A stretch of DNA of 63,671 nucleotides, from NCBI GenBank assembly GCA_001796335.1, contig MGMF01000023.1, positions 209,900 through 273,570 of the forward strand, read 5' to 3'. Of the stretch, positions 3,025 through 17,062 are shown in pieces; the stretch's first letter is position 1, and the number at the start of each line of letters is the position of its first letter. The translations under genes were made by a program, and so were the position numbers. This stretch comes from Chloroflexi bacterium GWB2_49_20 (GTDB lineage: Bacteria > Chloroflexota > Anaerolineae > Anaerolineales > Villigracilaceae). The notes beneath the pieces were generated by a model. That model worked only from the letters and a program-made list of their open reading frames with translations, was not told where the DNA came from and made no database searches.

Positions 3025-3774
3025 TTATTCTGTCTTCTGTTCAAACTCGGCTTCAACATAACCGTATATTCCCCTGTATTGAGCAGGTAACATGTGAGCC
3101 AAAGCCTCCATAATCCTGCGTGTTCCATCCACCAGGGCAGTCTTTCGATCAGTATCACCAGGCAAATGGAATGGATCCCCCACCGTTAGTGTAACATCTG
3201 TGCGCTTAAAGCGTTTCATATTCCCATAGATACGCCAATTCTCCGTACCGGTGATCGCCACAGGCACGATCGGAACATTCGCTTTCCTGGCCAGGAAAGC
3301 TGCTCCCTCCGTGCCTCCCTCCAAAGCGCCCAGGGGGCTTTCACGCCCTTCCGGTGCAATGGAGATGATGCGTCCCTGGCGTAATCCCTCCAGGGCGGCA
3401 CTGATTGCCCGCCTGTCTGGAAGGCCGCGGTGTACCCATATGACACCATACATTTCGATGATCTTTCCGAGTATTGGTAAATCGATCAACTCTATCTTGG
3501 CAAGAGGATCGGTAAAAACTGGCCAGAAGGCAATTCCAAGCACTCCATCTGCATCCCCCAGGTGATTGATCACTACCAGGGCGGGACCCTTGCGGGGAAA
3601 TTTTTCCAATCCCTGCACTTTTGCCCGGGTGAATATGAACACGGCCAGGCGGACAAACCCGCGTATCCACCACCTGAAAAACCGTTGACCTGCCTTCAGG
3701 GCTGGCAGACGGGTCAGTTCAGGTCGCCAGATTTCACTTACCGGCTTGGGTGGGGCTGATGGCGCTGGCTGCAT
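3025..3774 (-). CDS. 1-acyl-sn-glycerol-3-phosphate acyltransferase-like protein (PlsC family)
   Basis: A 249-residue membrane-associated lysophosphatidic-acid-type acyltransferase. It has the catalytic HX4D motif in NHLGDAD (~residue 70) and the glycerol-phosphate-binding motif IAPEGRES (~138). This family transfers an acyl chain to the sn-2 position of lysophosphatidic acid on the inner face of the membrane. Its start (ATG 3774, GAGGC five bases upstream) overlaps the end of the neighbouring plsC paralogue by 41 nt, so the two are co-translated. The order cmk-plsC-plsC suggests a phospholipid role. Two paralogues side by side may differ in acyl or acceptor preference; this cannot be read from sequence. 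Confidence 0.93.
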   Translation of the reverse strand: MQPAPSAPPKPVSEIWRPELTRLPALKAGQRFFRWWIRGFVRLAVFIFTRAKVQGLEKFPRKGPALVVINHLGDADGVLGIAFWPVFTDPLAKIELIDLPILGKIIEMYGVIWVHRGLPDRRAISAALEGLRQGRIISIAPEGRESPLGALEGGTEGAAFLARKANVPIVPVAITGTENWRIYGNMKRFKRTDVTLTVGDPFHLPGDTDRKTALVDGTRRIMEALAHMLPAQYRGIYGYVEAEFEQKTE

Positions 3775-4441
3775 ATACGCCTCGATAATTTTCCGGTAAC
3801 AATCCGGCGATATACGACATGATCAGATCAGCGTTGCGCTGGCGGGATTCTTTTCTCTGGCTGCCTTTTCCTTCCACGGAAGGAAGTTGGATTGGTTTCC
3901 CGATGCGTAATTCCAGCAACGGTCGCTGTCCATGTATCGCCTTGTGCCAGAAATCATCCGTTGTACCCACGATCCCAACCGGTAGAACCGGAAAGCCCGA
4001 CTCCTCAACAATGAACGCCACACCCGGTTTGGCTGCACACATATTGGTATTATGTGAACGCCCACCTTCAGGTGCGATCAGCACAGGCCGGCCTGATCTT
4101 AATGCACTGAAGACTGTATCAAGTGCTTTTCGATCATATTCGCCGCGATGAACGGGAATGCCTCCATACAACCAGGCCAGGATGCCCTGCCCGGGTTTAT
4201 GCCAAACTTCTGCAGCCCCAAGCGACTCCACCAGTTCAGGCCAGCACGAAATGATGAACGGAGGGTCAAACAACGAGACATGATTCATAGCCAAAATATA
4301 AGGTTTTCCAAATGGGATGTTTTCTCTGCCGCTGATCTTGATGGGTGCAAGGATCATGAAAATGGCTTTCAAAACTGTGCGAACAAGAGGTCGAGCCAAC
4401 CAGCGTCTCCAGGCTGGGACATGATAGGGTTTCAAATCCAT
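3734..4441 (-). CDS. 1-acyl-sn-glycerol-3-phosphate acyltransferase-like protein (PlsC family), paralogue
   Basis: A 235-residue acyltransferase with HX4D in NHVSLFD (~residue 53) and the EGGRS motif in APEGGRS (~125). A hydrophobic N-terminal helix (~22-34) fits a membrane-anchored enzyme. The ATG at 4441 has a good ribosome-binding site, GTGGAGACATT, that lies inside the end of cmk; the two genes overlap by 10 nt. It overlaps the second plsC by 41 nt at its own 3' end. The two paralogues share motifs but are clearly diverged, so this is an old duplication rather than a recent one. Likely role: phosphatidic acid synthesis. Confidence 0.93.
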   Translation of the reverse strand: MDLKPYHVPAWRRWLARPLVRTVLKAIFMILAPIKISGRENIPFGKPYILAMNHVSLFDPPFIISCWPELVESLGAAEVWHKPGQGILAWLYGGIPVHRGEYDRKALDTVFSALRSGRPVLIAPEGGRSHNTNMCAAKPGVAFIVEESGFPVLPVGIVGTTDDFWHKAIHGQRPLLELRIGKPIQLPSVEGKGSQRKESRQRNADLIMSYIAGLLPENYRGVYAASAISPTQAGK

Positions 4442-5106
4442 AATGTCTCCACATACCTGAAAACTTCATCGATATCCATCTTGTCTGAATCTACGATCAC
4501 AGCGTCTTTGGCTGCGCGCAAGGGTGCCACAGCCCGCGTCGAATCAATTTTGTCCCGTCCAATTACATTCGCCAGGATATCGGAGTATGAAGCTGGATCA
4601 CCCCGTTCCACCAACTCGTCATAGCGACGCCGGGCGCGTACTTCAGGCGATGCATCCAGGTAGATCTTAAGGTCAGCTTCAGGCAGGACCACTGTCCCAA
4701 TATCCCGTCCCACCATGACCACCTGTCCACGCAGACCTATGCGCCTTTGCTGGGCAGCCAGTTCCTTGCGTACTCCGGCGTATGCAGACACGATCGAAAC
4801 AATCGCTTCCACTTCCGGCCGGCGGGTTTCCCAGGTGATATCCTGCCCATCCACCAGGACATCGCAGGCACGCCCATCATCTCTTGAAGATGGATTTACA
4901 TCGATCTGGATCTCCCTGGACAGAGTTGTCACTGCTGCTTCATTATGAACATCCAGATTTCTCTGTAACACCATCCAGGTGACTGCCCGGTACATTACAC
5001 CGGTGTCAAAGAACAGGTATCCCAGGGACCTGGCCAGGTTCTTCCCCAGTGTCGATTTACCTGAAGCTGCCGGACCATCGATTGCAATTATGTTCGGTTT
5101 TGTCAT
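4432..5106 (-). CDS. cmk: Cytidylate kinase
   Basis: Phosphorylates CMP and dCMP with ATP in the cytosol, feeding CTP for nucleic acids and CDP-lipids. The P-loop GPAASGKST is at residues ~10-18, the NMP-binding region in the middle, and GRDIGTVVLPEADLKIYLDA around residue 130, as in bacterial Cmk; 224 residues is the normal length. A TTG 12 nt further upstream (5118) could also start translation, but ATG 5106 gives the usual Cmk N-terminus and has AGGAAAC in front. It overlaps the first plsC by 10 nt, forming a cmk-plsC-plsC unit; in many bacteria cmk is linked to phospholipid or ribosomal protein genes. Confidence 0.95.
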   Translation of the reverse strand: MTKPNIIAIDGPAASGKSTLGKNLARSLGYLFFDTGVMYRAVTWMVLQRNLDVHNEAAVTTLSREIQIDVNPSSRDDGRACDVLVDGQDITWETRRPEVEAIVSIVSAYAGVRKELAAQQRRIGLRGQVVMVGRDIGTVVLPEADLKIYLDASPEVRARRRYDELVERGDPASYSDILANVIGRDKIDSTRAVAPLRAAKDAVIVDSDKMDIDEVFRYVETLWI

Positions 5107-5142
5107 GTTTCCTGCCAATGAGTATTATCTCTTCGCATAATT

Positions 5143-6903
5143 TTATGGGGTGGAAGTGTCCAAACCTGCCCCGGCATCCAGAAATAGATCATCCTGCGCC
5201 CACAGAACCAGGAATTCTGATTGTTCCGGTATTTTACGAAAAACGATCCACCGCAGCCAGCCATCCAGCGGAAGACCATACCAAACAGGTGTCTTCCTCA
5301 AAATAAAATCCTGTCCCCGATAGGCGGATGCAAGCCTGATCTCAACATCCTGTGGAAGTATCACCAGGTCGGGAGAAGCATCCAGCGCCAGTGCGTCCAC
5401 CTGCTCCACTTGCCAATTGCGCAGCAACCACAGCAGCGCCGGGGAATTCAAATCAGACGATATGGTTATATCCAGACTTTGGATATGACCTTTACTCCAA
5501 TCGGACAACTCATCGACTGTTTTTATCAACAGATCTGCCTGCACAAATTGTGGTGCTGGTTGCCATAGTTCGGATGAAAACGGTTGACGCAAACCGGCTG
5601 CGTTAAGGCCAGCGCTCACAGTGTATAGAAGTAAAGCAAAAGCGCCTCCATAGACAATACCCCATTGGGCAATTCTTTCCTCCCAAACTGCTGCCGCCAG
5701 GAACATGCTTAAAATCATCAAAAGCAGTGCTCCCAGCAATAACATCATGCGTGACTGCAGAATGCCTGGATCAGTGAATGCAGAAGGGATGCTAATCAGG
5801 TCCAGCCATATAAAAACCATGAAGGCAAATGTCACTCCTGCTACAAGTGCAATTTGCCATTTTCTGGCAGAACCAAAATCCAAATACCGACTTAGCTCGA
5901 TGGCTGCCAGGCTCCAAACAGGCACGAGCATCCAGACCAGATCCCCCGCCTGGTGTACAGGGTAGATGAGCGCCAGAAGGAAAAATGTACCTGACAATAA
6001 GCCAAGTTGGATGCTTGTCCGATCTGTTTTCCTTAAGCCTCGCGCCAGGCCGATTAAACCGAAGATCAGAGCCAGGGGGGCATAAACCAGCAGGACAACC
6101 AAAAATATCCAGAGTGGTACCGAGCCTGGTGTCCACCAACCTCTCATAAAATCCACAATGGAACCCGCCCATGCGCTCAACCCATTGGGAACCAGTAAAA
6201 ACAGCGTCCCTACCAAAAGCAGGGTTCCTGCTCCCCACTTAATAGCAGTTTTTCGTGGATTTTCTACAGGAAATGGCAATGGTGGAATTACAATTCCCGG
6301 GCCTTCATCGTCCTGGATGGTGTTGTCAACCCGCGTTCGACCACCTGAATAATTCAAAATTAACCAGGTGAATCCCAGCCCCAGTGCTCCAAACCACGCA
6401 GACGGACCACATAGCAGCGCCACACCACCCATAACACCTGCCAGCCTGTAACTTCTGGATTGCCAGGCAGCCAGGCTTAGCGCTATAAAACCAACCGCCA
6501 TCATCTGACTGCCAGCCATACGGGATAAGGCCAGCATGCCCGGATCCAATGCCAGTGCAAAAGCCAGGAAAATGGCTGCCTTCCGTCCCAAATGCTTTTG
6601 AAAAGCCGCGGGAACCAGAACCAAACCAGCCCCGGCCAGGGCTGGCCAGAAGCGAGCCATGAAATTGCTGGCTCCGAAAATAAAGAAGTTGATCGCGGTC
6701 AGCAGCAAATAAGCTGGTTGTGAACCCAACAAGGGTTTACTTCCCCGGGCAATCTCCAATGCCTGGAGAGCCCATTTAGCTTCCCGGTCTGTCAATGGTT
6801 GAGTGCCCAGACTAATAAAACGCACGACCAATGCCAGGATGAATGCCAGGGAAAACAAGCCTTGTTCGAGCGTGATTCTTCGTGGGGTTGTCATCATATT
6901 CAT
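5143..6903 (-). CDS. GT-C type membrane glycosyltransferase (PMT/ArnT-like)
   Basis: A 586-residue polytopic protein of about 11-12 hydrophobic segments with a soluble C-terminal part (~residues 440-586). After the first membrane helix comes RFISLGTQPLTDREAKWA, the position of the acidic Asp/Glu motif that GT-C enzymes use to bind lipid-phosphate sugar donors. Such enzymes move a sugar from a polyprenyl-phosphate carrier to an acceptor outside the cell membrane. It is the most downstream of four large membrane glycosyltransferase-like genes on this strand. The start may be ATG 6903 or one of the ATGs 2 and 3 codons later; no clear ribosome-binding site is seen. Donor and acceptor are unknown. 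Confidence 0.8.
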   Translation of the reverse strand: MNMMTTPRRITLEQGLFSLAFILALVVRFISLGTQPLTDREAKWALQALEIARGSKPLLGSQPAYLLLTAINFFIFGASNFMARFWPALAGAGLVLVPAAFQKHLGRKAAIFLAFALALDPGMLALSRMAGSQMMAVGFIALSLAAWQSRSYRLAGVMGGVALLCGPSAWFGALGLGFTWLILNYSGGRTRVDNTIQDDEGPGIVIPPLPFPVENPRKTAIKWGAGTLLLVGTLFLLVPNGLSAWAGSIVDFMRGWWTPGSVPLWIFLVVLLVYAPLALIFGLIGLARGLRKTDRTSIQLGLLSGTFFLLALIYPVHQAGDLVWMLVPVWSLAAIELSRYLDFGSARKWQIALVAGVTFAFMVFIWLDLISIPSAFTDPGILQSRMMLLLGALLLMILSMFLAAAVWEERIAQWGIVYGGAFALLLYTVSAGLNAAGLRQPFSSELWQPAPQFVQADLLIKTVDELSDWSKGHIQSLDITISSDLNSPALLWLLRNWQVEQVDALALDASPDLVILPQDVEIRLASAYRGQDFILRKTPVWYGLPLDGWLRWIVFRKIPEQSEFLVLWAQDDLFLDAGAGLDTSTP

Positions 6904-6968
6904 AATTTTACTGTGAAAGTATTGTACCCGGGTTTAATTTAACATCATGGTTAACGAGAATAAATATC

Positions 6969-9449
6969 TCAAGGAGCGGGGTAAATTACCACGTTCCCCT
7001 GTGAGTAAATCGGTTGCAAAATGTGCTGAAATTTGGATTCATTTACGTGATATGTACTGCGCTCGAGCGAACCAATGTAAATATAACGAATATCGTACTT
7101 CTTCAAGATCGCCTCTGCCTCCGTCCAGCTTGAGGATTCATATAAAAGTTTCACATCTTCCTGTCGGGTTCCCTGGGGAGTTGAACTGCCACGCCATTGA
7201 CCTTCGTGCCCGGGCCAACCCAGGACGGTCGGCAGTCCGGTCAGGGTGGAGATGCGCCCATAATTACTGTAGCTGCCTCCCACTGCCTCCACCACCACTC
7301 CATCGGGAGCCTGAATTAACCAGGCAATTGCTTGAGCTTCATCCGGATTGTCGCGTTGCATGTATGCTGCGCCATCCAAAGTCCAGCCAAAAGTGGGCTT
7401 GAAATCATTGGTTTTCGTCATCAATCCCAAAACAGTGTATGTAAACGCCATCAGCAGAGTAAAAAACAAACCCAAACGGAACGCCCAATCCCAGAATCTG
7501 CGCAATTTCATCAAAAGCATGGCTGTCCCCAGAGCCGCCATCAGACTCCACAACATCCAGGCCTGGTAATAAAACTTGAAAATGGTATTGATGCGCCAGC
7601 CAAATTGATCACGCAAAAATACAAAATCTGGAATCAGTACCAATAGCCCACCTAACAAGATCAGCATCAAAACAAAAGGTGTTGGATCGCTATCTGGTAT
7701 AAGCTCAGTAAAACCCGTGGGATCTTCCCCATCTGGTTGAACCGGATCTTTTTTCGCTGCAATCAGGGATCCAAATAACATGGCCAATGCAACTACTAGC
7801 ATTATAACCAGCGTCAGCAAGCCGCCAATATAAAGCAATCTCCGCTGGCTGGCAAGTTGGAACAAGGTCGCCAGGTCAGAAACCCCCTGGGACCGTAATA
7901 CAGCCGCAGTTATCTCCGGCATGCGTACAGACACCAGCCAGCTTGCCAACCATGACAGGCTCCACAGACCAACCATCAGACTCACCACCGTGAGAATGGC
8001 TGCTTTCCAATTTGCTTTCAATTTCTGGTTGAAGACAAGATATGCCAGGTAGACAAAAATTGGCACGAACAAGCTTCCAAACATTACCCAGAGATGGGCA
8101 CCTCGCGTCGGATTGACCAGGTTGGGCAGGATGCCACCTGCCTGGGATGAGAATCCGGTATAAAACGGTACATATAGCAGCAGGCTTCCAGCGCCCGCGA
8201 TCATTGCATAACCCAATGTTTCTTCGATCCGTCTCCAGCCCCACCCTGCATCCACAATACGATGTAATAAAAAGGCGCCGCATACCATTGCAGCAGCGAT
8301 CAATATATCCCAGGTATTCAGAAATGCCAGTCCGCCCAACACAACTGCCGGGATCAGAAGCCCTTGCCATTTGATGGGAAAAGGAATTCCAAATATCCTG
8401 GTATGCCCGCGCCAGCCGCCCAGAAACAAATTCAACCCCACCCCGATCGCCAGCAAGCCGAATGGTATAGACAATACATGGGGATGAAGGTCTCCCAGTA
8501 AGTAAGAGAAAACAGGAAATTCGTCAATCAACTCCTGAGGGTTATTTTGAAGGGTGGTATCACTGACCACGCGAGAAGCCCGCCACCACCACAAGTAGCG
8601 ATCCGGTAGCCACCCTAAAGGTTGGCTGGGTGCCTGGGTCAGATCTTTAATATCCAGCCATTTCCAGAAAGAGGAGGAGGCGGTTCCATCTGCAGAGATA
8701 TTCCAGAGCAACCCTTTGCGGTGCAATACTTCCAAAAATCCTTCCAGGTTGCTGGCAAGCAACAAGAACACAGGACCTAACACAGGTAGTGAAGTGATGG
8801 CTTTTCGAGACATCCTTTTGTCCTGCTTTTGCATCGCTGCCAACAGGTTATAAATGATCCCATAGGCACCAATGGCACCCAAGGCAAATACCAGTGCCAG
8901 CATCAGGTTGAAGGCAATACTGCCTGCCACTCCGGTCAACCTGGCCAGCATGGCGGTCATCACATATCCGAAGTAATAATAGGAAATTCCATATCCCGAC
9001 AACCAGGGGTCACGCGGTGGAAAGGTCGGTGAGCGCAGGATGGAATTAATAAAAGCTAATTCCATTGGCTTTTCGGTACCCAGAATCTCCGGGTTGGCGG
9101 AACGAATGATTGCCAGAGCCGCGAAAGCCAGGAGGAACAATGCCTCAATCGTGATGACCATGGAGACGTGTTGCTTCAACCAGGTCCGCATTTCCACCAG
9201 TCGGCTTCTCCCCACCCAGGCGCTCAAACCTGTCAGCAGAATGGCAGCCAGCAACAACCCTCCCAAGTCATTTTGCGCAACACCCAGAGATGTCAGCAAC
9301 CAGAAAATGTAACCCCACACCAACAAACTTGCGGCTCGCGCCAGGCTGTAACCTCGATCCGCCAATGCTGGTAACAAGGTATAAACCAGCGGAAATGTCA
9401 GCCAGCTTAAGACGGTAATTGACAAGTACCAGAGCAGAAATGCCATCAT
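6969..9449 (-). CDS. DUF2298-domain membrane protein (probable GT-C glycosyltransferase)
   Basis: An 826-residue protein that is nearly all membrane helices. It matches my memory of DUF2298 (the Chloroflexi/archaeal YYY-type domain): GYGISYYYFGYVMTAML (~residue 155) holds the YYY signature, and YLLGDLHPHVLSIPF (~310) the second conserved block. C-terminal blocks EAVGGSYSNYGRISTLTG and GWPGHEGQWRG match the same blocks in its 1659-residue neighbour. No biochemical role is established for this family; fold and neighbours suggest transfer of sugars from a lipid carrier. A TAAAAT box stands a few bases upstream, so ATG 9449 or 9446 could head a nearly leaderless transcript. It lies 7 nt after the DUF952 gene. 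Confidence 0.85.
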   Translation of the reverse strand: MMAFLLWYLSITVLSWLTFPLVYTLLPALADRGYSLARAASLLVWGYIFWLLTSLGVAQNDLGGLLLAAILLTGLSAWVGRSRLVEMRTWLKQHVSMVITIEALFLLAFAALAIIRSANPEILGTEKPMELAFINSILRSPTFPPRDPWLSGYGISYYYFGYVMTAMLARLTGVAGSIAFNLMLALVFALGAIGAYGIIYNLLAAMQKQDKRMSRKAITSLPVLGPVFLLLASNLEGFLEVLHRKGLLWNISADGTASSSFWKWLDIKDLTQAPSQPLGWLPDRYLWWWRASRVVSDTTLQNNPQELIDEFPVFSYLLGDLHPHVLSIPFGLLAIGVGLNLFLGGWRGHTRIFGIPFPIKWQGLLIPAVVLGGLAFLNTWDILIAAAMVCGAFLLHRIVDAGWGWRRIEETLGYAMIAGAGSLLLYVPFYTGFSSQAGGILPNLVNPTRGAHLWVMFGSLFVPIFVYLAYLVFNQKLKANWKAAILTVVSLMVGLWSLSWLASWLVSVRMPEITAAVLRSQGVSDLATLFQLASQRRLLYIGGLLTLVIMLVVALAMLFGSLIAAKKDPVQPDGEDPTGFTELIPDSDPTPFVLMLILLGGLLVLIPDFVFLRDQFGWRINTIFKFYYQAWMLWSLMAALGTAMLLMKLRRFWDWAFRLGLFFTLLMAFTYTVLGLMTKTNDFKPTFGWTLDGAAYMQRDNPDEAQAIAWLIQAPDGVVVEAVGGSYSNYGRISTLTGLPTVLGWPGHEGQWRGSSTPQGTRQEDVKLLYESSSWTEAEAILKKYDIRYIYIGSLERSTYHVNESKFQHILQPIYSQGNVVIYPAP

Positions 9450-9456
9450 TGTTATT

Positions 9457-9798
9457 TTACACTGAAGGCAGGTTAAATTGCCCTTCAGGATTCTCTTTGA
9501 AATCCAGAACCCGGCTGACCGCGTCCAGGTTTATCGGGCCATAAACATGAGGAAATAATTCGTCTTGTTTATCAGTACCTGGCTCCCAGCGCATTTCAGA
9601 GGTAAGCCTGGTTGGATCAATGACCAGGATCACCAGGTCTTTCTGCCCGCGATAGAATGTATTGGCTACGCGCAACAACTGTGTATACAGTGAGCAGTGG
9701 ATAAACCCCTCCCTGGCCAGTGAATCAGATTGATAACCATTTCTCTTTACAGCCTCTTCCCAGGCTTTCCATGAACTGATGTGGTAGATGTTAACCAT
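9457..9798 (-). CDS. DUF952 family protein
   Basis: A 113-residue soluble protein matching the DUF952 family: it opens with MVNIYHISSWKAWEEA, then GFIHCSLYTQL (~residue 32) and the C-terminal FPHVYGPINLDAVSRVLDF. Members have an ADP-ribosyltransferase-like fold by structural comparison, but no function has been shown. It sits between two giant glycosyltransferase genes, 7 nt before the DUF2298 gene and 23 nt after the fusion gene, so it is probably carried in their transcript. It is out of place for an envelope cluster; nothing in its sequence links it to sugar transfer. Confidence 0.88.
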   Translation of the reverse strand: MVNIYHISSWKAWEEAVKRNGYQSDSLAREGFIHCSLYTQLLRVANTFYRGQKDLVILVIDPTRLTSEMRWEPGTDKQDELFPHVYGPINLDAVSRVLDFKENPEGQFNLPSV

Positions 9799-9821
9799 AA
9801 CCCTTCCTTTTTTGTTTCTTT

Positions 9822-12800
9822 TCAGCCACCAATGACAGTATAGATAACCGTCTGCCCATCCCGGTAAACTTCATTCCACAGCGTGCCATTGTATTTCTCA
9901 AATTTCACCAGTCCGGCATCGTTATTTTCAATATCCCGATACTCTGCCCGTTCCAATTGTCCCACGATAATGTATTGGACGTGATATTTCTTCAAGAAAA
10001 CCACTACCTGAGCCGGATCTGAGGTTTTATAAAATGCAGTGATCTCATCCACTCGCTGAAAGACAGTGTTTGACGCCAAAACACGCTGCTGGCGCTGGTG
10101 CCAGTTCCATCCCACCACTCCAGGTAAACCCGTATAGATTGTAAATCGCGTCCCCCACCGATATTCCGGTACATTCGCTTCCACTATAACAGGTGAGCCT
10201 TTCACATTTTCCTGCATCCAGTGGATGGCACGATAATCAGCACTCAGATCCATATCCACGCCAAAATCAGAATAGGTGGCATAATTCATATAAGCCATAC
10301 TGTCCAGTGTATGTGGGGCGCTGGGTACCCAACGATCCCGAATCTTATCCATGCCCCCCAAAATAAGGAAGAGACTCGCGCAGACAACCAATCCCGTGGC
10401 AAAGAAATACCAGATAGATTGCCAGTTGAGGCGCCATTTGGGAATTTCAGTCAGAAGCCAACCAAACGCGGCCGCTGCACTCAACCCAAACAAGATCCAG
10501 GCTTGCAGGTAGAATTTAAAGACTGTATTCATCCGGCCGATATCTCCACGCAGCACAATGATTTCCACCACGAGTGTCAGCACCAGGCCAGTTCCCACCA
10601 TAAACAGTACTCCACGCTTGACATCCGGCATATCTTTCCGCAGGATCAAAACACCACACCAGGCTGCCAATGGCAGCACCAGCCAGGCAATGGCAACTTT
10701 TGTAGCCAGTAAAACCAGCAACGTGGCAGTCAGCAAGAACAGGATGATCTCGATCAGACCTCGGAAAGACCGCAGTTTGCTCATCGCTGAAAGAGGTGTT
10801 TCAGCCATCCATTGCCTGGTTTCCCAAGTCATCCAGGAGACTATGAAGAACAGGAATACACCCCACTGGGTCAGATACGACCCGATGGAAGTATGACTAT
10901 ATCTCCAATAATCCACGCTGCCGTAAGCCTGGGAAAACCATTGTGAGAATGGTTGAAATAATACAACCGATAAAACGATAACTGCAACCATGGCTGTGAT
11001 CGCATGTGCAGCTCTTGACGCTGATTGTGGAACACCCGACAAATGCTTTTGCACGAGTGGCAATCTCCAGGCAGCATAACCTATCGCCAGCACCCCCAAA
11101 GTCAGGTAAGTATAATAATCCCAAGTGTTGGTGGGTTTGAGCGAACCAATGACGAGGGCGCCCAGCCCCACTCCGATGACAGATTCCAATTTTCCTGCCC
11201 ACCTGGCACGTGACACCATTACAGACAGTGCCCAGGCAATCACCAGGATAGTCAAAGGCAGTACGATCATATGAGCATGCAGGTCACTATATATGAAAGT
11301 AAATAATGGAAACTCTGTGATCGGCTCCACATCCCCCTGGGCAGGAATGACCCGGCTGGGCAGCCAGTACCAGTCCCCTGTCATAAATGGCAGGGGAGTA
11401 CCGGCGAGTGTTTTGCCGAATCCCTGGATCGCCCACCACCACCTCTGGAATATATTTGTTGAGTCAATCATGCCTCCCGGTGCAGCCACCCGTTGAAAAC
11501 CCAGGTAGAGCATCCGGATAATGCCCAGGTTTCCGAACAGAAGCATGGCTGCAGATGAGGAAAATCCAGCCACAAAAGGCAGCCGTTGGAAGAGTCTCTT
11601 TCCTCGCTCGTTGTCGATGTTGATCCCGGCTCCCATGATATTCCACCCAACTGAAAACGCATTGACCGCCAGCATGGCAAACAACGTTGGCAGGATGAAA
11701 TTATATGCAATGGTTGGCACGATCCCCAGTAGCTTGACCGGTGTCCCCACCAGCACATATCCAAAATAGTAATAGTTTATGTACCCTCCTGCAAACCAGG
11801 GATCATAGGGTGGGAAGCGCGTGCTCTTGAGAACAGCATTTAAATACGAGAAATCCATCGGGCGTTCCCCCCCCTTGTATGGGTGCCAGAGATCGGGGTT
11901 GCCCAGCCGGATGCCCAGGTCTAACAAAAAGAACAGCAGGAAAACTCCTTCCACCAGCAGGAAGTATCTCCATTTGATCTGGATCTCCTCGCGCAGCTCC
12001 TTGCGCTGACGGAAGGCCATGAACCCCCCCAATCCAGCCAACACAAGCAGCACCAGCCCAATCGTGGTCCTGCTATAAGTAAGCCCCAGCGAGCCAGCCA
12101 TCCATGCCAGCCAGGCCCACAAAAGCAGCCCGACAGTGCGCGCCAAAGGATAGCCCCGATCGCTCAACCCAGGCATGGCTGCTCGCACAATTGGATAAAC
12201 CAGCCAACCAAGGATGAAGATGGTTAAATACCAGAGCACCAATCCGATGAACGGATAACGATTGTAAAAAATCTGGGTGTCGAATAACTCGGACCAGGTT
12301 CCTCCAGACTGTTGAGCTGCCAGTTGGTCCGACGGCAGCATCAAGGTTTTATAATTATCCGCCTGCCCCGGCGTAAGGTGGATGACATTGCTGATGTCGA
12401 CTGCAGTTAAAAGAGCTTCCATCCGGGACGGGTCAAAATTGGCATTCTTCTTAAAAATCATAACCTTTGGATGGTCATAGAATGTAAAGGCTTCTTCAGC
12501 CTGCTGGTCGTTGATCACCAGGTTGCCAAGCGTTGGGTAGGATGTAAATACCGCCACCAGGTCAAAGCCCAGTTTTCCCTCGAAAGTTCCCGGTTCAGCC
12601 GTGCGATAGCACCAGATGATTTCCTTATCTTCAGGGCAGCCTATCAACGCCCGGTAATAGGCAGTGGTAAGCGGATACCTTTCCGGTAAGCGCGTGATCT
12701 GCCCGTATTGGTGGTTGGTGGGAATGAAAATATAATCAGCTGCGTTCAGAGTGGTGATGAAACGAGTTAGTTTGTCTGCATTGTCGTCCCAATACACTTG

Positions 12801-14801
12801 CAGGTTCAAATCTCCCCGATAAAGACCGCCAAAACCATCATAACCGCCAATTCGAAATGGCAACCCGTAATCATAATCGGTCTCATTGACAACTGCCGAG
12901 CCATCCAGCACCAGCATTCCGCCTGTAGTTTCAAGATGTAGAAAATAAGTTTGTCCTTTGGTCAGTTGAACCGGCTGGTCCAATTTAAAAAGGTAGGCCT
13001 CGCCCTGGGAGGGATTGCCGGATGCAAAATCTGCAATTAATGCAGCACTGGCGTTTGCCTGCCCGGGTGAAGCAGGAGGCGGTGTCAATGAAACAGACAG
13101 GCTCAGCGTTTGCGGGCCGCTGACGGCAGAATCCATTACATGCGGCAGCAGAATTTCATTCAAAACACCATCTGCCTGAGCTACAAAAAAAGTATCAAAG
13201 GGGGCGCCAGGTTGGATGGCATTTCCCTGTGAGTAAGGTAATGGCTGTTGAATGGTTTCGTTCCCATTCGATTGGACCTCCAGAGTAATCGGGCCGGGAA
13301 TATTCTGGTAGATCCACTTTGAGGCAGCTATACGGGTTTCATCGCGCACATAAATACTTGAAAAGCTTATCGCCCAGACTGAGCTGGCAACCACTACACC
13401 CAGACCAATGACCAGGCTGGCAATAGTTGCAAACCGGCGGACATTTACCCACTTCTGCCCCGACTCTTTCGTTTTCCCGACACCCCACAGCCACACCAGC
13501 AACCAGGCTGCCATCAAGGCCAACAGGGGGTAGATTGGCAGTTCATAACGCATGGTCGGGTTGAACTGCAGGGATTGCCAGATAAAGTAGGCGGCTGTCC
13601 AGGACCACAACAGGATATGTTTACGCCATTCACCCTTTAAACTAAGCCAGCCCATCCAGGTAAAACCAGCCCAGGCTAAAATTCCAAGAGGTAAACCCAA
13701 CCCCCACATGGTCAGGTTCTCAAATGAATACAGGTGGGAGCGTCGTGCCCATTGTAAATTCCACGGCAGATCTGCATTGGCATTGGCCTGGGCGCGCTGC
13801 TCGCTAATATTTGCCAGCCATTGCGGATTTAATCCAAATCCATCAAATGCGTAAGGTTGGAAAATCCGGAAAGAAATGACCGCGAATAACCCGCCCACGA
13901 TCAGATACAGGATCACCTGGCCGAAAATATCCGGATGGTCATTCTCACGATCACTTTGGAAATATTTAACCATAAATGCCAGGGGCAGCAGCAAAGCTAG
14001 TGGAGCAGCATTCAATTTTGAAGCCACTGCCATGCCAAACGCCACCCCAAACAGCGCGCTCAGAAAAAAATCGCGCTCTTTCACCAAACGTTTCACCATA
14101 CCCAACGTACTGGTTTTTTGAGGATCCGTAGGGACCAGCTGGCTGGTTGAAAATCCGGAATGTTCACCTGCCACAATTTCAACTGCAAAATATATCGCCA
14201 GGAAGATAAAGAAATTGGTGAACAAGTCGCTGGTATAAAAATGGGATTGCTGGATCTGCATTACTGCCAGGGAGGAAAACACCGCTGCAAGCAGTGCCAC
14301 TCGTCTGCCATAAAGACGTGCGGCAATCACATACAACAGGGCAATTGTCATCAAGTCCATCAGGGCTGACAGCTGCCTACCGAAAAGTTTTAAATTCCCC
14401 ATCTGGTTTGTCCACTCAGCCAGGTATCGCGTCATGAACACAGGCAAAGTTCCATACGCATAGAATGCATGTCCGCGATTATGCGGGTTCAAAGGAGAAC
14501 AGGAGGTATCAAAATATCCACCCCATTTTGTACAATCCGGGAATTCACTTGCGAAGGCTGTTCGCCACGGAGCTGAAAGGGTGGTTGGAAGTGAAAACGT
14601 ATCATTTTTTGCACCAACCAGGCCAATATCATAGGTCACTGATGTTAGAAAGCCCTCATCCGGATGCTGATGCTGCAATTCGCCCCAATCACTGCCACGC
14701 AAACGCAAAAATGCTGCCCCAATTAAAACAACCAGGAATAACAGGTCATAAATCCAGTTACACTTAGGCTTGCGCTTTGATTCCATCATTTCAACATTCA
14801 T
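9822..14801 (-). CDS. Giant GT-C glycosyltransferase fused to a DUF2298 domain
   Basis: At 1659 residues this is the largest gene here. The N-terminal part (~1-490) is a PMT-like membrane glycosyltransferase with the acidic motif QHQHPDEGFLTSVTYD (~residue 40) after the first helix. A soluble, beta-rich region (~500-830) follows, with a repeated ...QLTKGQTYFLHLETTGG-type pattern and no membrane segment; it would lie outside the membrane. The C-terminal half (~845-1655) is a complete DUF2298 module: GGYINYYYFGYVLVG and FIYSDLHAHMIVLPL. The adjacent 826-residue gene carries DUF2298 alone, so the fusion joins two modules that also exist separately. ATG 14801 has AGGATG nine bases upstream. Probable job: assembly of a cell-surface glycan or glycoprotein; substrates unknown. 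Confidence 0.85.
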   Translation of the reverse strand: MNVEMMESKRKPKCNWIYDLLFLVVLIGAAFLRLRGSDWGELQHQHPDEGFLTSVTYDIGLVGAKNDTFSLPTTLSAPWRTAFASEFPDCTKWGGYFDTSCSPLNPHNRGHAFYAYGTLPVFMTRYLAEWTNQMGNLKLFGRQLSALMDLMTIALLYVIAARLYGRRVALLAAVFSSLAVMQIQQSHFYTSDLFTNFFIFLAIYFAVEIVAGEHSGFSTSQLVPTDPQKTSTLGMVKRLVKERDFFLSALFGVAFGMAVASKLNAAPLALLLPLAFMVKYFQSDRENDHPDIFGQVILYLIVGGLFAVISFRIFQPYAFDGFGLNPQWLANISEQRAQANANADLPWNLQWARRSHLYSFENLTMWGLGLPLGILAWAGFTWMGWLSLKGEWRKHILLWSWTAAYFIWQSLQFNPTMRYELPIYPLLALMAAWLLVWLWGVGKTKESGQKWVNVRRFATIASLVIGLGVVVASSVWAISFSSIYVRDETRIAASKWIYQNIPGPITLEVQSNGNETIQQPLPYSQGNAIQPGAPFDTFFVAQADGVLNEILLPHVMDSAVSGPQTLSLSVSLTPPPASPGQANASAALIADFASGNPSQGEAYLFKLDQPVQLTKGQTYFLHLETTGGMLVLDGSAVVNETDYDYGLPFRIGGYDGFGGLYRGDLNLQVYWDDNADKLTRFITTLNAADYIFIPTNHQYGQITRLPERYPLTTAYYRALIGCPEDKEIIWCYRTAEPGTFEGKLGFDLVAVFTSYPTLGNLVINDQQAEEAFTFYDHPKVMIFKKNANFDPSRMEALLTAVDISNVIHLTPGQADNYKTLMLPSDQLAAQQSGGTWSELFDTQIFYNRYPFIGLVLWYLTIFILGWLVYPIVRAAMPGLSDRGYPLARTVGLLLWAWLAWMAGSLGLTYSRTTIGLVLLVLAGLGGFMAFRQRKELREEIQIKWRYFLLVEGVFLLFFLLDLGIRLGNPDLWHPYKGGERPMDFSYLNAVLKSTRFPPYDPWFAGGYINYYYFGYVLVGTPVKLLGIVPTIAYNFILPTLFAMLAVNAFSVGWNIMGAGINIDNERGKRLFQRLPFVAGFSSSAAMLLFGNLGIIRMLYLGFQRVAAPGGMIDSTNIFQRWWWAIQGFGKTLAGTPLPFMTGDWYWLPSRVIPAQGDVEPITEFPLFTFIYSDLHAHMIVLPLTILVIAWALSVMVSRARWAGKLESVIGVGLGALVIGSLKPTNTWDYYTYLTLGVLAIGYAAWRLPLVQKHLSGVPQSASRAAHAITAMVAVIVLSVVLFQPFSQWFSQAYGSVDYWRYSHTSIGSYLTQWGVFLFFIVSWMTWETRQWMAETPLSAMSKLRSFRGLIEIILFLLTATLLVLLATKVAIAWLVLPLAAWCGVLILRKDMPDVKRGVLFMVGTGLVLTLVVEIIVLRGDIGRMNTVFKFYLQAWILFGLSAAAAFGWLLTEIPKWRLNWQSIWYFFATGLVVCASLFLILGGMDKIRDRWVPSAPHTLDSMAYMNYATYSDFGVDMDLSADYRAIHWMQENVKGSPVIVEANVPEYRWGTRFTIYTGLPGVVGWNWHQRQQRVLASNTVFQRVDEITAFYKTSDPAQVVVFLKKYHVQYIIVGQLERAEYRDIENNDAGLVKFEKYNGTLWNEVYRDGQTVIYTVIGG

Positions 14802-14974
14802 AAAGATTATTCATCCTACGATCCATATCCTCTCATTGATCTGGGGATATTGCCCTTCTTTTATGAGAAGATACGTATAATCTCAATAAACTTGGGGCTG
14901 GTGGTGTGGGAGGCTTCGTAGCCCACACACCAACCATCTTTGCCTCCTTATCGAGAAGATACTAAATATTTATT

Positions 14975-17062
14975 TTATTGGACAGGTACAAAAAAGATCA
15001 TAAAATCATGATTGGGCGTTTTAGATGAGAATCGGCTTACAGCACCCTGCGGGTAATAGCTTTGCAGAATATTGGCAACTTTATTGTCTTCGACATTGTA
15101 AATGAATAATTTTACGCCAGGCACTGGTAGTGTATCCACCAGGTTCTCAGGCCAGACAGCAAAATCGCGATTTGGAATACCTGCCCATACTCCCGGCAGG
15201 CGCGTATCCACCCAATATGGATATGGAATGATCCAGGTATTACCCGTGGATCCATAAGTCAACCCAAACTGCTTGATCACCTGACCCATCTCGGACGAAT
15301 TCCATGACCCCATACGGAATTGCTGGTCATACTGGTTGAAAACCAGGTCATAGTTCTGTGATATCGATATAACCAACAGGAGCCCGGCCACCGCCCAGGC
15401 CAGGTATTTCCCGCTGTTCCGGTTCATCACCGACCGGATACCCTCCAGCAAGCCTTCAAGTGCCAGCGCAATAATTATGAATACGGGTACATAAGCACCA
15501 GCCGTCCGGTTTAATGCCGGGTTCTCTGCCGGGTAAGCCAGGGAAAGGATTGAAGGCAACATCAAAATGGGTATGGACAGCATCAGGAACAGATCCAACC
15601 AGTTCCGTTCCCGCAGGTAACGGATGAGCAATAAAACCAGCCCCAGCACAAATAAACCGGCAGACACCAGGTCCAACGCCGGACGGTAAGGCACTGAATG
15701 TACCCAGATCTCTCCATCCGACCAGTTGAACATTCTCAATGCATTCCAGGTGTTGGATAAAAGGATTTGCCACCATATTCCTGAAAGAGGCTGTTCCAGA
15801 CTTCCCAATCGTGAAAAAGCCCGGTAGGAAAAAGCCTCCGGGTTTTGCATCCAGTAACGCAAGAGTGGCAGAAAAACAAATAGGGAAGTGATCGCCAATA
15901 GACCCAGCCACGCCCATACCTGCTTTCGGTTCCCCAGGGATTGGCGGTGAAGTAGATATAAAATGATGGCAAAAACAACCAGGATCGGCATGATCCGGAA
16001 AGGGCTGTAACCGTGCAAACCCAGGCCGAGGAAAAACCCGGCCAGGATGAAATCATTGCGCCAGGAACGTCGTAAACCCCGGATTAGGTAGTACAACACA
16101 GGAGCCACAAATAGTGGATATAACGGGAAACGCAGACCCACCCGGCTGATGATATTCGGCCAGTAAGCAATCCCACATAACAGCAGGGCGATCATTCCAA
16201 CCTTGCGATTCCCAATTTCTTTTCCCAACACATACATATATGGCAGGGTTGCCAGACCGAGTAAAACCGTCCCTATTTTCAGGCTTAAAAAAGATAAACC
16301 CGTCCCAAATATTCCTGCCACTGCAGCAGTAAGGTACATTTGCAGGGCTTCACGGCCTGTGTTGCGCGGGAAGAAAATATGGGTTTGTCCCATGGTGACA
16401 TCATACACATCCAGGATCTTCTCAGCATGATCACTAAAAGGTTCCGCGGGTACCGCGCCAAGCTGGTAAGTTCGGAAGAAGACTACCAATAGGATCGCTG
16501 CCAGAACCAGCACATCCCAACGCGAGATATTTATCTGCCAGGGTTCCCTCTTCAAAAAATTTTTCAGTCGCACCCAGGCTGAACCACCTTTCGATTCTTG
16601 CAGCCAGAATGCCCAGAACAGAAAAACGATGGCCAGGAGCCATAAAGTCAGGTTTAAAGCGTTGAAAAAGTTCCCGCCAAATAATGCAAAGGCTGCCAGG
16701 GCAAAAATACCAGCCGGAAGCAATGCCGTCAGGCGGACGCTCAACGGGTCCTGGCGCGGTTCTGTTGCCCGGATTGGAGCCAATCCCCATTCTGAGCGCA
16801 TTACAGCCAAGATCAGAAACACAACACTCAGCAGGTAAAAACCAATTCCTGCCACCCAGTTCCGGCTTGGCGGCTCAAAGCTTCTCTGCCCTGCCAGAGC
16901 CAGTACCACTGCCAGCAATGATCGCCAGGGGATCCTTCTGCTGCTGTATATGGTCTCTGGCCCAGGTTCTGGCAAGTTTTCTTCGAGAGGCAGTTCAAGT
17001 TTCTCTGCCTGCCAAAATCTGAGTTTCGATTTAACGTAATCCAGGACGCTTGGCTCTTCCAT
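14975..17062 (-). CDS. GT-C type membrane glycosyltransferase
   Basis: A 695-residue protein. A soluble N-terminal ~45 residues precede about 13 membrane segments and an outer C-terminal domain (~590-695). The GT-C acidic motif is in EPFSDHAEKILDVYD (~residue 215), followed by FFPRNTGREALQMYL, a stretch seen in ArnT/PMT-like enzymes. The active site therefore sits after an extra N-terminal membrane region of about 170 residues, unlike the 586-residue gene where it follows the first helix. It is separated from the giant fusion gene by 173 bp that hold no gene and only an imperfect GC-rich hairpin. Lipid-carrier donor and acceptor are unknown. Confidence 0.82.
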   Translation of the reverse strand: MEEPSVLDYVKSKLRFWQAEKLELPLEENLPEPGPETIYSSRRIPWRSLLAVVLALAGQRSFEPPSRNWVAGIGFYLLSVVFLILAVMRSEWGLAPIRATEPRQDPLSVRLTALLPAGIFALAAFALFGGNFFNALNLTLWLLAIVFLFWAFWLQESKGGSAWVRLKNFLKREPWQINISRWDVLVLAAILLVVFFRTYQLGAVPAEPFSDHAEKILDVYDVTMGQTHIFFPRNTGREALQMYLTAAVAGIFGTGLSFLSLKIGTVLLGLATLPYMYVLGKEIGNRKVGMIALLLCGIAYWPNIISRVGLRFPLYPLFVAPVLYYLIRGLRRSWRNDFILAGFFLGLGLHGYSPFRIMPILVVFAIILYLLHRQSLGNRKQVWAWLGLLAITSLFVFLPLLRYWMQNPEAFSYRAFSRLGSLEQPLSGIWWQILLSNTWNALRMFNWSDGEIWVHSVPYRPALDLVSAGLFVLGLVLLLIRYLRERNWLDLFLMLSIPILMLPSILSLAYPAENPALNRTAGAYVPVFIIIALALEGLLEGIRSVMNRNSGKYLAWAVAGLLLVISISQNYDLVFNQYDQQFRMGSWNSSEMGQVIKQFGLTYGSTGNTWIIPYPYWVDTRLPGVWAGIPNRDFAVWPENLVDTLPVPGVKLFIYNVEDNKVANILQSYYPQGAVSRFSSKTPNHDFMIFFVPVQ

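Follow-up and report, generated by a model that had tools for sequence, protein, structure and literature searches.

A block of large membrane protein genes in the Chloroflexota genome of Chloroflexi bacterium GWB2_49_20 appears to be a conserved glycosylation cassette, which is probably extracytoplasmic. It occupies positions 5143 to 17062 of the 63,671-nucleotide stretch of DNA analyzed here (contig MGMF01000023.1, positions 209,900 to 273,570; referred to as the window) and holds the only two DUF2298 matches in the genome. We consider it likely that DUF2298 is a family of glycosyltransferases with the GT-C fold and that the block forms an extracytoplasmic glycosylation machine that uses polyprenyl-linked sugars. 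The gene order, the module make-up, the predicted GT-C fold (of the stand-alone DUF2298 protein, P2, and of the first module of a fusion protein), and the invariant residues on which this reading draws were all computed.

An earlier note, made from the window's sequence alone, had described four large open reading frames on one strand; all four are intact and lie on the minus strand (586, 826, 1,659, and 695 residues). The order of transcription is P4, the fusion gene, a small DUF952 gene, P2, and P1, and five GT-C or GT-C-like modules are spread over four of these genes.

Family membership and predicted fold of DUF2298

Both DUF2298 modules exceed the curated cut-offs of PF10060 (27.8 bits) and of TIGR03662 (300 bits), the latter named "Chlor_Arch_YYY" (scores are in Table 1). 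The PF10060 match covers residues 44 to 634 of P2 and residues 894 to 1438 of the fusion. The stand-alone DUF2298 protein and the fusion of a PMT-type enzyme to DUF2298, both of which the earlier note had read from the sequence, are confirmed.

The model of P2 has a predicted local distance difference test score (pLDDT) of 95.9 and a predicted template modeling score (pTM) of 0.95. A Foldseek search with this model returned six PDB rows with an E value of ≤0.001, all of them GT-C enzymes (DPY19, STT3A, and AftA). In VIA-align, the best superposition is on AftA (Z, 15.5; 496 residues aligned; root mean square deviation [RMSD], 4.9 Å; 12% identity), and P2 also superposes on yeast STT3 (Z, 13.9; 458 residues; 7.1 Å), AglB (Z, 12.3; 458 residues; 7.0 Å), and ArnT (Z, 11.5; 454 residues; 6.4 Å). 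All 36 of the entries listed with a Z of ≥8 are GT-C enzymes, DPY19 among them, or the AglB C-terminal domain; an unrelated protein first appears at a Z of 6.3. The GT-C status of the matched enzymes is as given in excerpts of PMC11127046 and PMC10154233. Since no other fold comes close in VIA-align, we retain the GT-C assignment despite the modest Z values, and the model makes it very probable indeed that DUF2298 has this fold. The ALG9 and ALG12 matches are taken by us to be GT-C enzymes as well.

The superposition begins at residues 77 to 100 of the P2 model in 33 of the 36 rows with a Z of ≥8, which places three helices ahead of the GT-C core. The superposition on AftA begins at residue 16, and AftA may share part of this predicted N-terminal extension. 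By a count along the DSSP line, the membrane part that follows has 13 long helices, the number given in excerpts for STT3, AglB, and PglB (PMC8342417) and for DPY19 (PMC10154233). A C-terminal outer dome completes the model and superposes on the AglB-S2 domain 3vu0_A (Z, 9.8; RMSD, 2.8; 112 residues aligned). In an alignment of 115 DUF2298 domains (A2) taken from 80 loci, the best 80 of at least 569 relatives, with near-duplicates dropped (3 of 71 and 5 of 51), hhalign matches residues 654 to 794 to a 7-row STT3 profile at 82% (E, 1e−5); a smaller alignment (A1; 23 rows in the residue counts, with 16 of 38 domains omitted) gives 29% for the same region. The dome is the sole part of DUF2298 with a sequence-profile link to STT3. 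A PDB sequence search with the DUF2298 profile placed chance membrane proteins in its top rows (best E, 0.035).

Candidate active site

Seven residues (E126, E310, D320, H322, R619, N621, and K625 in P2) are invariant in all 115 rows of A2 and all 23 rows of A1. The RINTIFKFY-type motif (R619 to K625) and YYY served as seeds of the scan behind A2, and their conservation in that alignment is therefore partly built in; the scan was not seeded with E126, E310, D320, or H322. The helix count places E126 in outer loop 1 (EL1), D320-x-H322 at the end of outer loop 2 (EL2), and R619 at the start of helix 12, a placement that comes from the helix count and chain offsets and not from coordinates or distances. 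In AglB, the first motif supplies the metal ligand D47 and the second motif supplies D161 and H163, and conserved arginines accompany the metal and the phosphate (excerpt of PMC8342417). Counted by offset from the first aligned residue, AglB D47 falls near residue 131 of the P2 model. The first-loop acids of ArnT, yeast STT3, and PglB, at the positions that we assume for them, would fall at about residues 123, 127, and 137.

Overall, the invariant Glu and the Asp-x-His pair suggest a working, perhaps metal-dependent, putative site. The structure prediction that the earlier note had suggested as a check yielded a GT-C-like P2 model and, in place of a fold unlike GT-C with no conserved acid, an invariant E126 in putative outer loop 1. 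The argument for a transferase that the earlier note had drawn from shared motifs is not valid in the form given: its YYYFGY and DLH-H blocks are common to both DUF2298 copies and are not shared by the PMT module, and as motifs of the DUF2298 family they are by themselves no argument for transferase activity.

Distant homologues retain the candidate residues to varying extents. One on a Pseudobutyrivibrio (Firmicutes) plasmid, at 25.2% identity, keeps GTEKFMD, GDLHAH, and R-x-NT-x-FK, with E126, E310, D320, and H322 all present, and an archaeal piece from Halarchaeum keeps DLHAH and R-x-NT-x-FK. Three divergent Chloroflexota members, at loci L165, L166, and L175, retain both the Glu and the D-x-H; Lys is replaced by Ala in L166. 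Further weak partial matches to PF10060 were seen at L167 and L173. The low PF10060 matches at L168 to L172 and L174 (22.8 to 37.2 bits) were rejected as DUF2298, since DLHxH was not found in them, and were assigned to another family. This membrane protein family is GT-C-like, with frames of 713 to 767 residues in which PQVPYFAG...YHWFADFH replaces the YYY block.

The fusion protein and its partners

The model of fusion residues 1 to 870 (pLDDT, 88.4; pTM, 0.87) superposes on AglB (3waj; Z, 28.2) and ArnT (5f15; Z, 26.9) and also on Pmt4 and Pmt1-Pmt2. A Pfam scan of the whole-length protein finds no PMT match; the N-terminal part alone matches PMT_2 at 27.5 bits (cut-off, 26.1). Among the 46 fusion N-modules scanned, PMT_2 matches 40, and the archaeal STT3 model TIGR04154 weakly matches 30. 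With the N-module alignment (A3; 6 of 51 N-modules omitted), hhalign gives 98.1% for P4, 93.3% for P1, and 96.3% for STT3 homologues, and a PDB sequence search with the N-module finds ArnT at an E value of 0.017. D48 and E49 of the HPDE motif are present in 43 of 46 rows, and the other 3 are gapped there. The outer domain is rich in strands at about residues 505 to 639 (residues 516 to 639 correspond to positions 12885 to 13256), and we read its model as a beta-sandwich inserted in an alpha/beta part; DUF4082 matches 3 of 46 members at an E value of ≤0.01. Since DUF2298 superposes on GT-C enzymes, the fusion probably combines two GT-C enzymes in a single chain. An 84% hhalign match between A2 and A3 was rejected as a sign of homology: it is a 25-residue overlap at the end of A3, which is already the start of DUF2298.

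The earlier note had named two further PMT-like enzymes. The name suits P4, which exceeds the PMT_2 cut-off and in whose family D211 and E214 are conserved in 40 of 41 and 38 of 41 sequences (the P4-type alignment, A5, omits 3 of 43 homologues, 2 of them short and 1 more). It suits P1 less well: its own Pfam scan has no PMT match, and its kin is TIGR03663, which NCBIfam names "flippase activity-associated protein Agl23." At 45.8 bits against a cut-off of 126.25, P1 is related to this family and is not filed as a member; the model matches all 53 aligned P1-family members at an E value of ≤0.01 (the P1-type alignment, A4, omits 9 of 61 homologues, 7 of them short and 2 by hand). Excerpts of PMC11182771 describe Haloarcula Agl23 as a putative hexose-phosphodolichol flippase that suppressed a yeast rft1 deletion and that, when purified, moved lipid-linked oligosaccharide across liposome membranes; in the literature searched, flippase activity was reported for this Haloarcula protein alone. 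From its sequence kinship, P1 could be a flippase or another transferase. Longer PMT/Agl23-like frames of 1,100 to 1,211 residues were seen at one related locus (L107:11740-15372), where the frame has an NHL beta-propeller at its C terminus, and on contigs C20 and C21 of the window's own genome.

Homologues of the DUF952 gene are found in 24 of the 80 loci, and in 20 of these they lie between the fusion and DUF2298. Its product matches an RNA 2′-phosphotransferase model very weakly (12.6 bits; cut-off, 231).

Gene order and distribution

The order of the block recurs in related loci, and PF10060 matches 170 of 251 Chloroflexota genomes at an E value of ≤0.001 (167 above the cut-off and 162 with an E value of <1e−70), which argues that the block is not a chance arrangement. 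As the 80 loci are the best of the relatives found, the gene-order counts hold for near relatives. Upstream of DUF2298, 60 of the 80 loci have a fusion-type gene (60 of the 66 that can be judged; 14 cannot), and 6 lack it despite at least 6 kb of room; 7 of the 60 show the DUF2298 half alone, 5 of these at contig ends. P4 is found upstream of the fusion in 39 of the 47 judgeable loci (8 lack it despite sufficient room, and 13 more have no room for it), and a P1-type gene is found downstream of DUF2298 in 61 of 71 (10 lack it despite sufficient room, and 9 more have no room for it). The full order P4-fusion-P2-P1 is present in 32 of the 80 loci, one of which is without the fusion N-module.

Frames of 2,501 to 2,867 residues occur in 15 of the PF10060-matching genomes, with two DUF2298 matches per frame in 14 of them. 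A second sample of 121 genomes includes 81 with a P1-like match at an E value of ≤1e−8. Strong DUF2298 is present in 79 of these 81, the remaining two (G027 and G103) having marginal P1-like matches, and in none of the 20 listed P1-negative genomes; 20 further P1-negative genomes lie outside the comparison. These genomes are related, and the co-occurrence counts are therefore not independent events. DUF2298 is also found in archaea, including Haloferax volcanii.

True STT3 is rare in Chloroflexota. Matches of 69 to 93 bits were found in 1 of 101 genomes (29 match at an E value of ≤0.001, and 13 are above the cut-off), and 5 of 60 genomes of the class holding that genome match STT3 at an E value of ≤1e−10. 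One genome (G159) has an STT3 homologue and DUF2298 together; another (G079) has three STT3 matches and is not among the genomes listed with DUF2298.

The Pseudobutyrivibrio plasmid homologue lies in a glycan locus with two family 2 glycosyltransferases and an O-antigen ligase family protein. Its next annotated neighbors are a hypothetical protein and a nucleoside diphosphate (NDP)-sugar epimerase/dehydratase, and a glucosyltransferase-domain protein is found about 5 kb away.

Proposed mechanism and alternative explanations

What follows on the working of the cassette is inferred, from the membrane topology and the enzyme activity to the metal, the donor, the acceptor, the coupling, and the part played by P1. 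Cytoplasmic enzymes would load a sugar onto polyprenyl (pyro)phosphate, and the lipid-linked sugar would be turned to the outer face, possibly aided by the Agl23-like P1. The sugar would then pass to an acceptor at active sites that P4, the fusion, and DUF2298 expose on the outer face. In DUF2298, E126 of outer loop 1 may act as the catalytic acid/base, and a metal ion and the leaving phosphate may be held by D320-x-H322 of outer loop 2 and by R619. The fusion may couple two successive transfers or represent a built-in heterodimer.

A number of results weigh against this proposal. Activity data for any DUF2298 member were not found in the literature searched. The TM-scores of the six best Foldseek rows are low (0.29 to 0.39 by query and 0.34 to 0.52 by target), and their RMSDs range from 13 to 18 Å; VIA-align itself cautions that helical bundles with a Z below about 13 can share mere arrangement, and 5 rows reach 13. 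Profile comparisons by hhalign do not link residues 85 to 350 of DUF2298 to STT3 (0.26%, against 0.12% for a reversed control), and in global mode the value is at the level of the reversed control (0.16%, against 0.15% for the control). The same region gives 0.84% with the fusion N-module, 3.9% with P4, and 0.28% with P1, and full-length DUF2298 profiles give 7.7% with P4 and 10.1% with P1. Aligned by eye, TEKPME stands where AglB has GGNDPW, and K127 aligns with AglB D47, with E126 one place before; Lys or Arg occupies the position of K127 in 114 of 115 rows, and the metal-binding Asp of the first DXD motif is missing. In a window test against STT3, the EL1 segment ranks 12 of 126 and 5 of 129 and the EL2 segment with D320-x-H322 ranks 5 of 131 and 7 of 133, which is suggestive at most (top 4 to 10%), and the helix 12 segment with R619 is unremarkable (30 of 132 and 14 of 134). 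WWDYG is absent from the P2 dome and from the A2 consensus (for comparison, "WWD" is present in 5 of 7 Chloroflexota STT3 homologues). A TIXE/SVSE-like acid (EL5) was not found either, P2 residues 449 to 607 having no invariant or near-invariant residue in A2. Without WWDYG or a TIXE-like acid, DUF2298 may act in the manner of an oligosaccharyltransferase (OST) but is not filed as one. It is doubtful, if conceivable, that DUF2298 is a metal-dependent OST-like class on the STT3 plan (a 13-helix GT-C part, a D-x-H metal site, and an outer dome) but outside the STT3 family, that it forms, with Agl23-like proteins, a main machine of extracytoplasmic glycosylation in Chloroflexota, and that the fusion is a processive double transferase.

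The remaining explanations assign DUF2298 a different task. It could have the GT-C fold but no longer any catalytic role, assisting the PMT-like modules as a structural or acceptor-binding partner, as PIG-U does in the glycosylphosphatidylinositol (GPI) transamidase. A GPI-transamidase chain (9ub7_B) is among the P2 superpositions (Z, 7.8), and DUF2298 is both fused to and encoded beside GT-C-type proteins. However, invariant E126, E310, D320, and H322 in putative outer loops exceed what a scaffold needs, and DUF2298 stands alone in the Firmicutes glycan locus, albeit with the glucosyltransferase-domain protein nearby; we therefore consider such a partner unlikely. If DUF2298 and P1 instead formed a flippase for polyprenyl-linked sugars, only P4 and the first module of the fusion would be transferases. 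The kinship of P1 to TIGR03663/Agl23, the liposome transport and rft1 suppression reported for Haloarcula Agl23 in excerpts of PMC11182771, and the co-occurrence of DUF2298 and P1-like genes are consistent with this, but the conserved DUF2298 residues lie, by helix count, in outer loops, as in transferases, and DUF2298 has a C-terminal dome of the OST and DPY19 kind, which makes a flippase role quite improbable.

A polymerase, ligase, or hydrolase acting on lipid-linked oligosaccharide, in place of a single-sugar transferase, is the explanation to which we give least weight, and we regard it as very unlikely. A (pyro)phosphate-linked oligosaccharide would be a fitting substrate for a protein with a metal-site-like D-x-H and an OST-like dome, and the Firmicutes homologue does lie in a glycan locus, but an O-antigen ligase family protein is already annotated in that locus, and the best superposition is on AftA, a single-sugar transferase. 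Taken together, the predicted fold and the invariant acid make "a lipid-linked sugar transferase or its partner," as the earlier note had put it, the likeliest reading of DUF2298, although the motif argument behind it is invalid and P1 stands nearer to a reported flippase. DUF2298 is probably a transferase.

Genomic surroundings

Upstream of the block, the window encodes two methyltransferases, a family 4 glycosyltransferase, a cation efflux protein, an NDP-sugar epimerase, and an LPG_synthase_TM protein. Homologues of the methyltransferases recur in 32 and 30 of the 80 loci, and homologues of the glycosyltransferase, epimerase, and LPG_synthase_TM protein are found in 30 (upstream), 9 (upstream), and 10, respectively. 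Downstream, a cytidylate kinase and two PlsC-type acyltransferases directly follow the cassette (positions 3025 to 5118), and a MarR-type regulator is also encoded; downstream homologues of the kinase occur in 36 loci and of the acyltransferases in 19. In about 31 of the 80 loci, a histidine kinase is encoded downstream; the open reading frames there are similar to a 1,093-residue histidine kinase that contains Cache, GAF, and PAS domains (L059:15810-19088).

A family 2 donor synthase was not recognized among the scanned genes of the block. The genome has 13 family 2 glycosyltransferase matches, and 3 of the 5 scanned resemble lipid-linked sugar synthases at scores below the cut-offs (AglJ-like, 124 and 135 bits; PgfS/ArnC-like, 278 and 201 bits).

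TABLE 1 Genes, modules, and motifs of the block, in window positions
Feature	Positions	Strand	Basis
P4, PMT_2 GT-C-type protein, 695 residues	14975-17062	minus	PMT_2, 30.8 bits
P4 D211-H-A-E214-K, putative first outer loop	16418-16432	minus	
Fusion protein, 1,659 residues: GT-C, outer domain, DUF2298	9822-14801	minus	
Fusion residues 10-490, predicted first GT-C module (PMT/ArnT/AglB-like)	13332-14774	minus	Model
Fusion HPDE motif	within 14649-14666	minus	
Fusion residues 489-810, outer domain	12372-13337	minus	Secondary structure of model
Fusion residues 851-1656, DUF2298 module	9834-12251	minus	PF10060, 412 bits; TIGR03662, 526 bits
Fusion GGERPMD	11853-11873	minus	
Fusion YSDLHAH	11271-11291	minus	
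Fusion RMNTVFKFY	10509-10535	minus	
DUF952 gene	9457-9798	minus	PF06108, 101 bits
P2, stand-alone DUF2298 protein, 826 residues	6969-9449	minus	PF10060, 371 bits; TIGR03662, 509 bits
P2 residues 1-94, three extra N-terminal helices (2-25, 34-54, 62-93)	9168-9449	minus	P2 model
P2 motif TEKPME with E126	9060-9077	minus	
P2 residues 95-679, predicted GT-C membrane part, 13 long helices	7413-9167	minus	DSSP-line count
P2 motif GDLHPH (D320-x-H322)	8478-8495	minus	
P2 motif RINTIFKFY (R619-K625)	7569-7595	minus	
P2 residues 695-826, predicted C-terminal outer dome, AglB/STT3-like	6972-7367	minus	Superposition and profile
P1, Agl23-related GT-C-like membrane protein, 586 residues	5143-6903	minus	TIGR03663, 45.8 bits, below cut-off
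P1 D39-x-E41, first loop	6781-6789	minus	

Significance and comparison with known systems

DUF2298 is widespread in Chloroflexota and also present in archaea, yet the family entries name no function for it. In the portions of the literature covered by our search, no description of its function was found, the domain being named in a gene-neighborhood table and occurring in a database paper; no mention of TIGR03662, TIGR03663, PF10060, or "Chlor_Arch_YYY" was found in the literature searched, and nothing was found on GT-C enzymes with DUF2079 or a Pfam clan or on N-glycosylation in Chloroflexi. The predicted fold, the candidate site, and the constant partner set make DUF2298 testable by deletion and point mutation. 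The fusion of two GT-C modules, together with the two-copy DUF2298 frames elsewhere, would offer a handle on the cooperation of such enzymes at the membrane surface, and if Agl23 is read as belonging to a DUF2298 system, this could have a bearing on the passage of lipid-linked sugars across membranes. PF10060 may already be in the Pfam GT-C clan, in which case the fold assignment would not be new. Presumably, too, the comment on TIGR03663 cites its co-occurrence with TIGR03662, and that on TIGR03662 mentions two-copy proteins.

To the matches of both modules with TIGR03662 and PF10060, the present analysis adds a predicted fold and a candidate site. Among characterized enzymes, DUF2298 is like AglB, STT3, and PglB in the predicted GT-C fold and C-terminal outer dome found by superposition and may be like them, as read without a residue-level superposition, in the 13 long helices, the D-x-H of outer loop 2, and an Arg at the start of the last-but-one helix. 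It differs from them in that three extra helices precede the GT-C part, EK replaces the first-motif Asp, and neither WWDYG nor a conserved TIXE-like acid is present, and its N-terminal half has no sequence match to them. AftA gives the best superposition of P2, but with low identity over the aligned part. The first module of the fusion and P4 match PMT_2, and the former superposes on ArnT, Pmt4, and Pmt1-Pmt2 but, in contrast to these, is joined to DUF2298 via an outer domain. P1, whose family matches TIGR03663/Agl23 and which sits beside DUF2298, is itself far below the cut-off and has D-x-E in its first loop. Finally, three-component systems (GtrB-GtrA-GT-C; GT136), as described in an excerpt of PMC11127046, consist of a lipid-linked donor, a flippase, and a GT-C enzyme; the cassette would share this general scheme, but with five GT-C or GT-C-like modules, two of which are fused.

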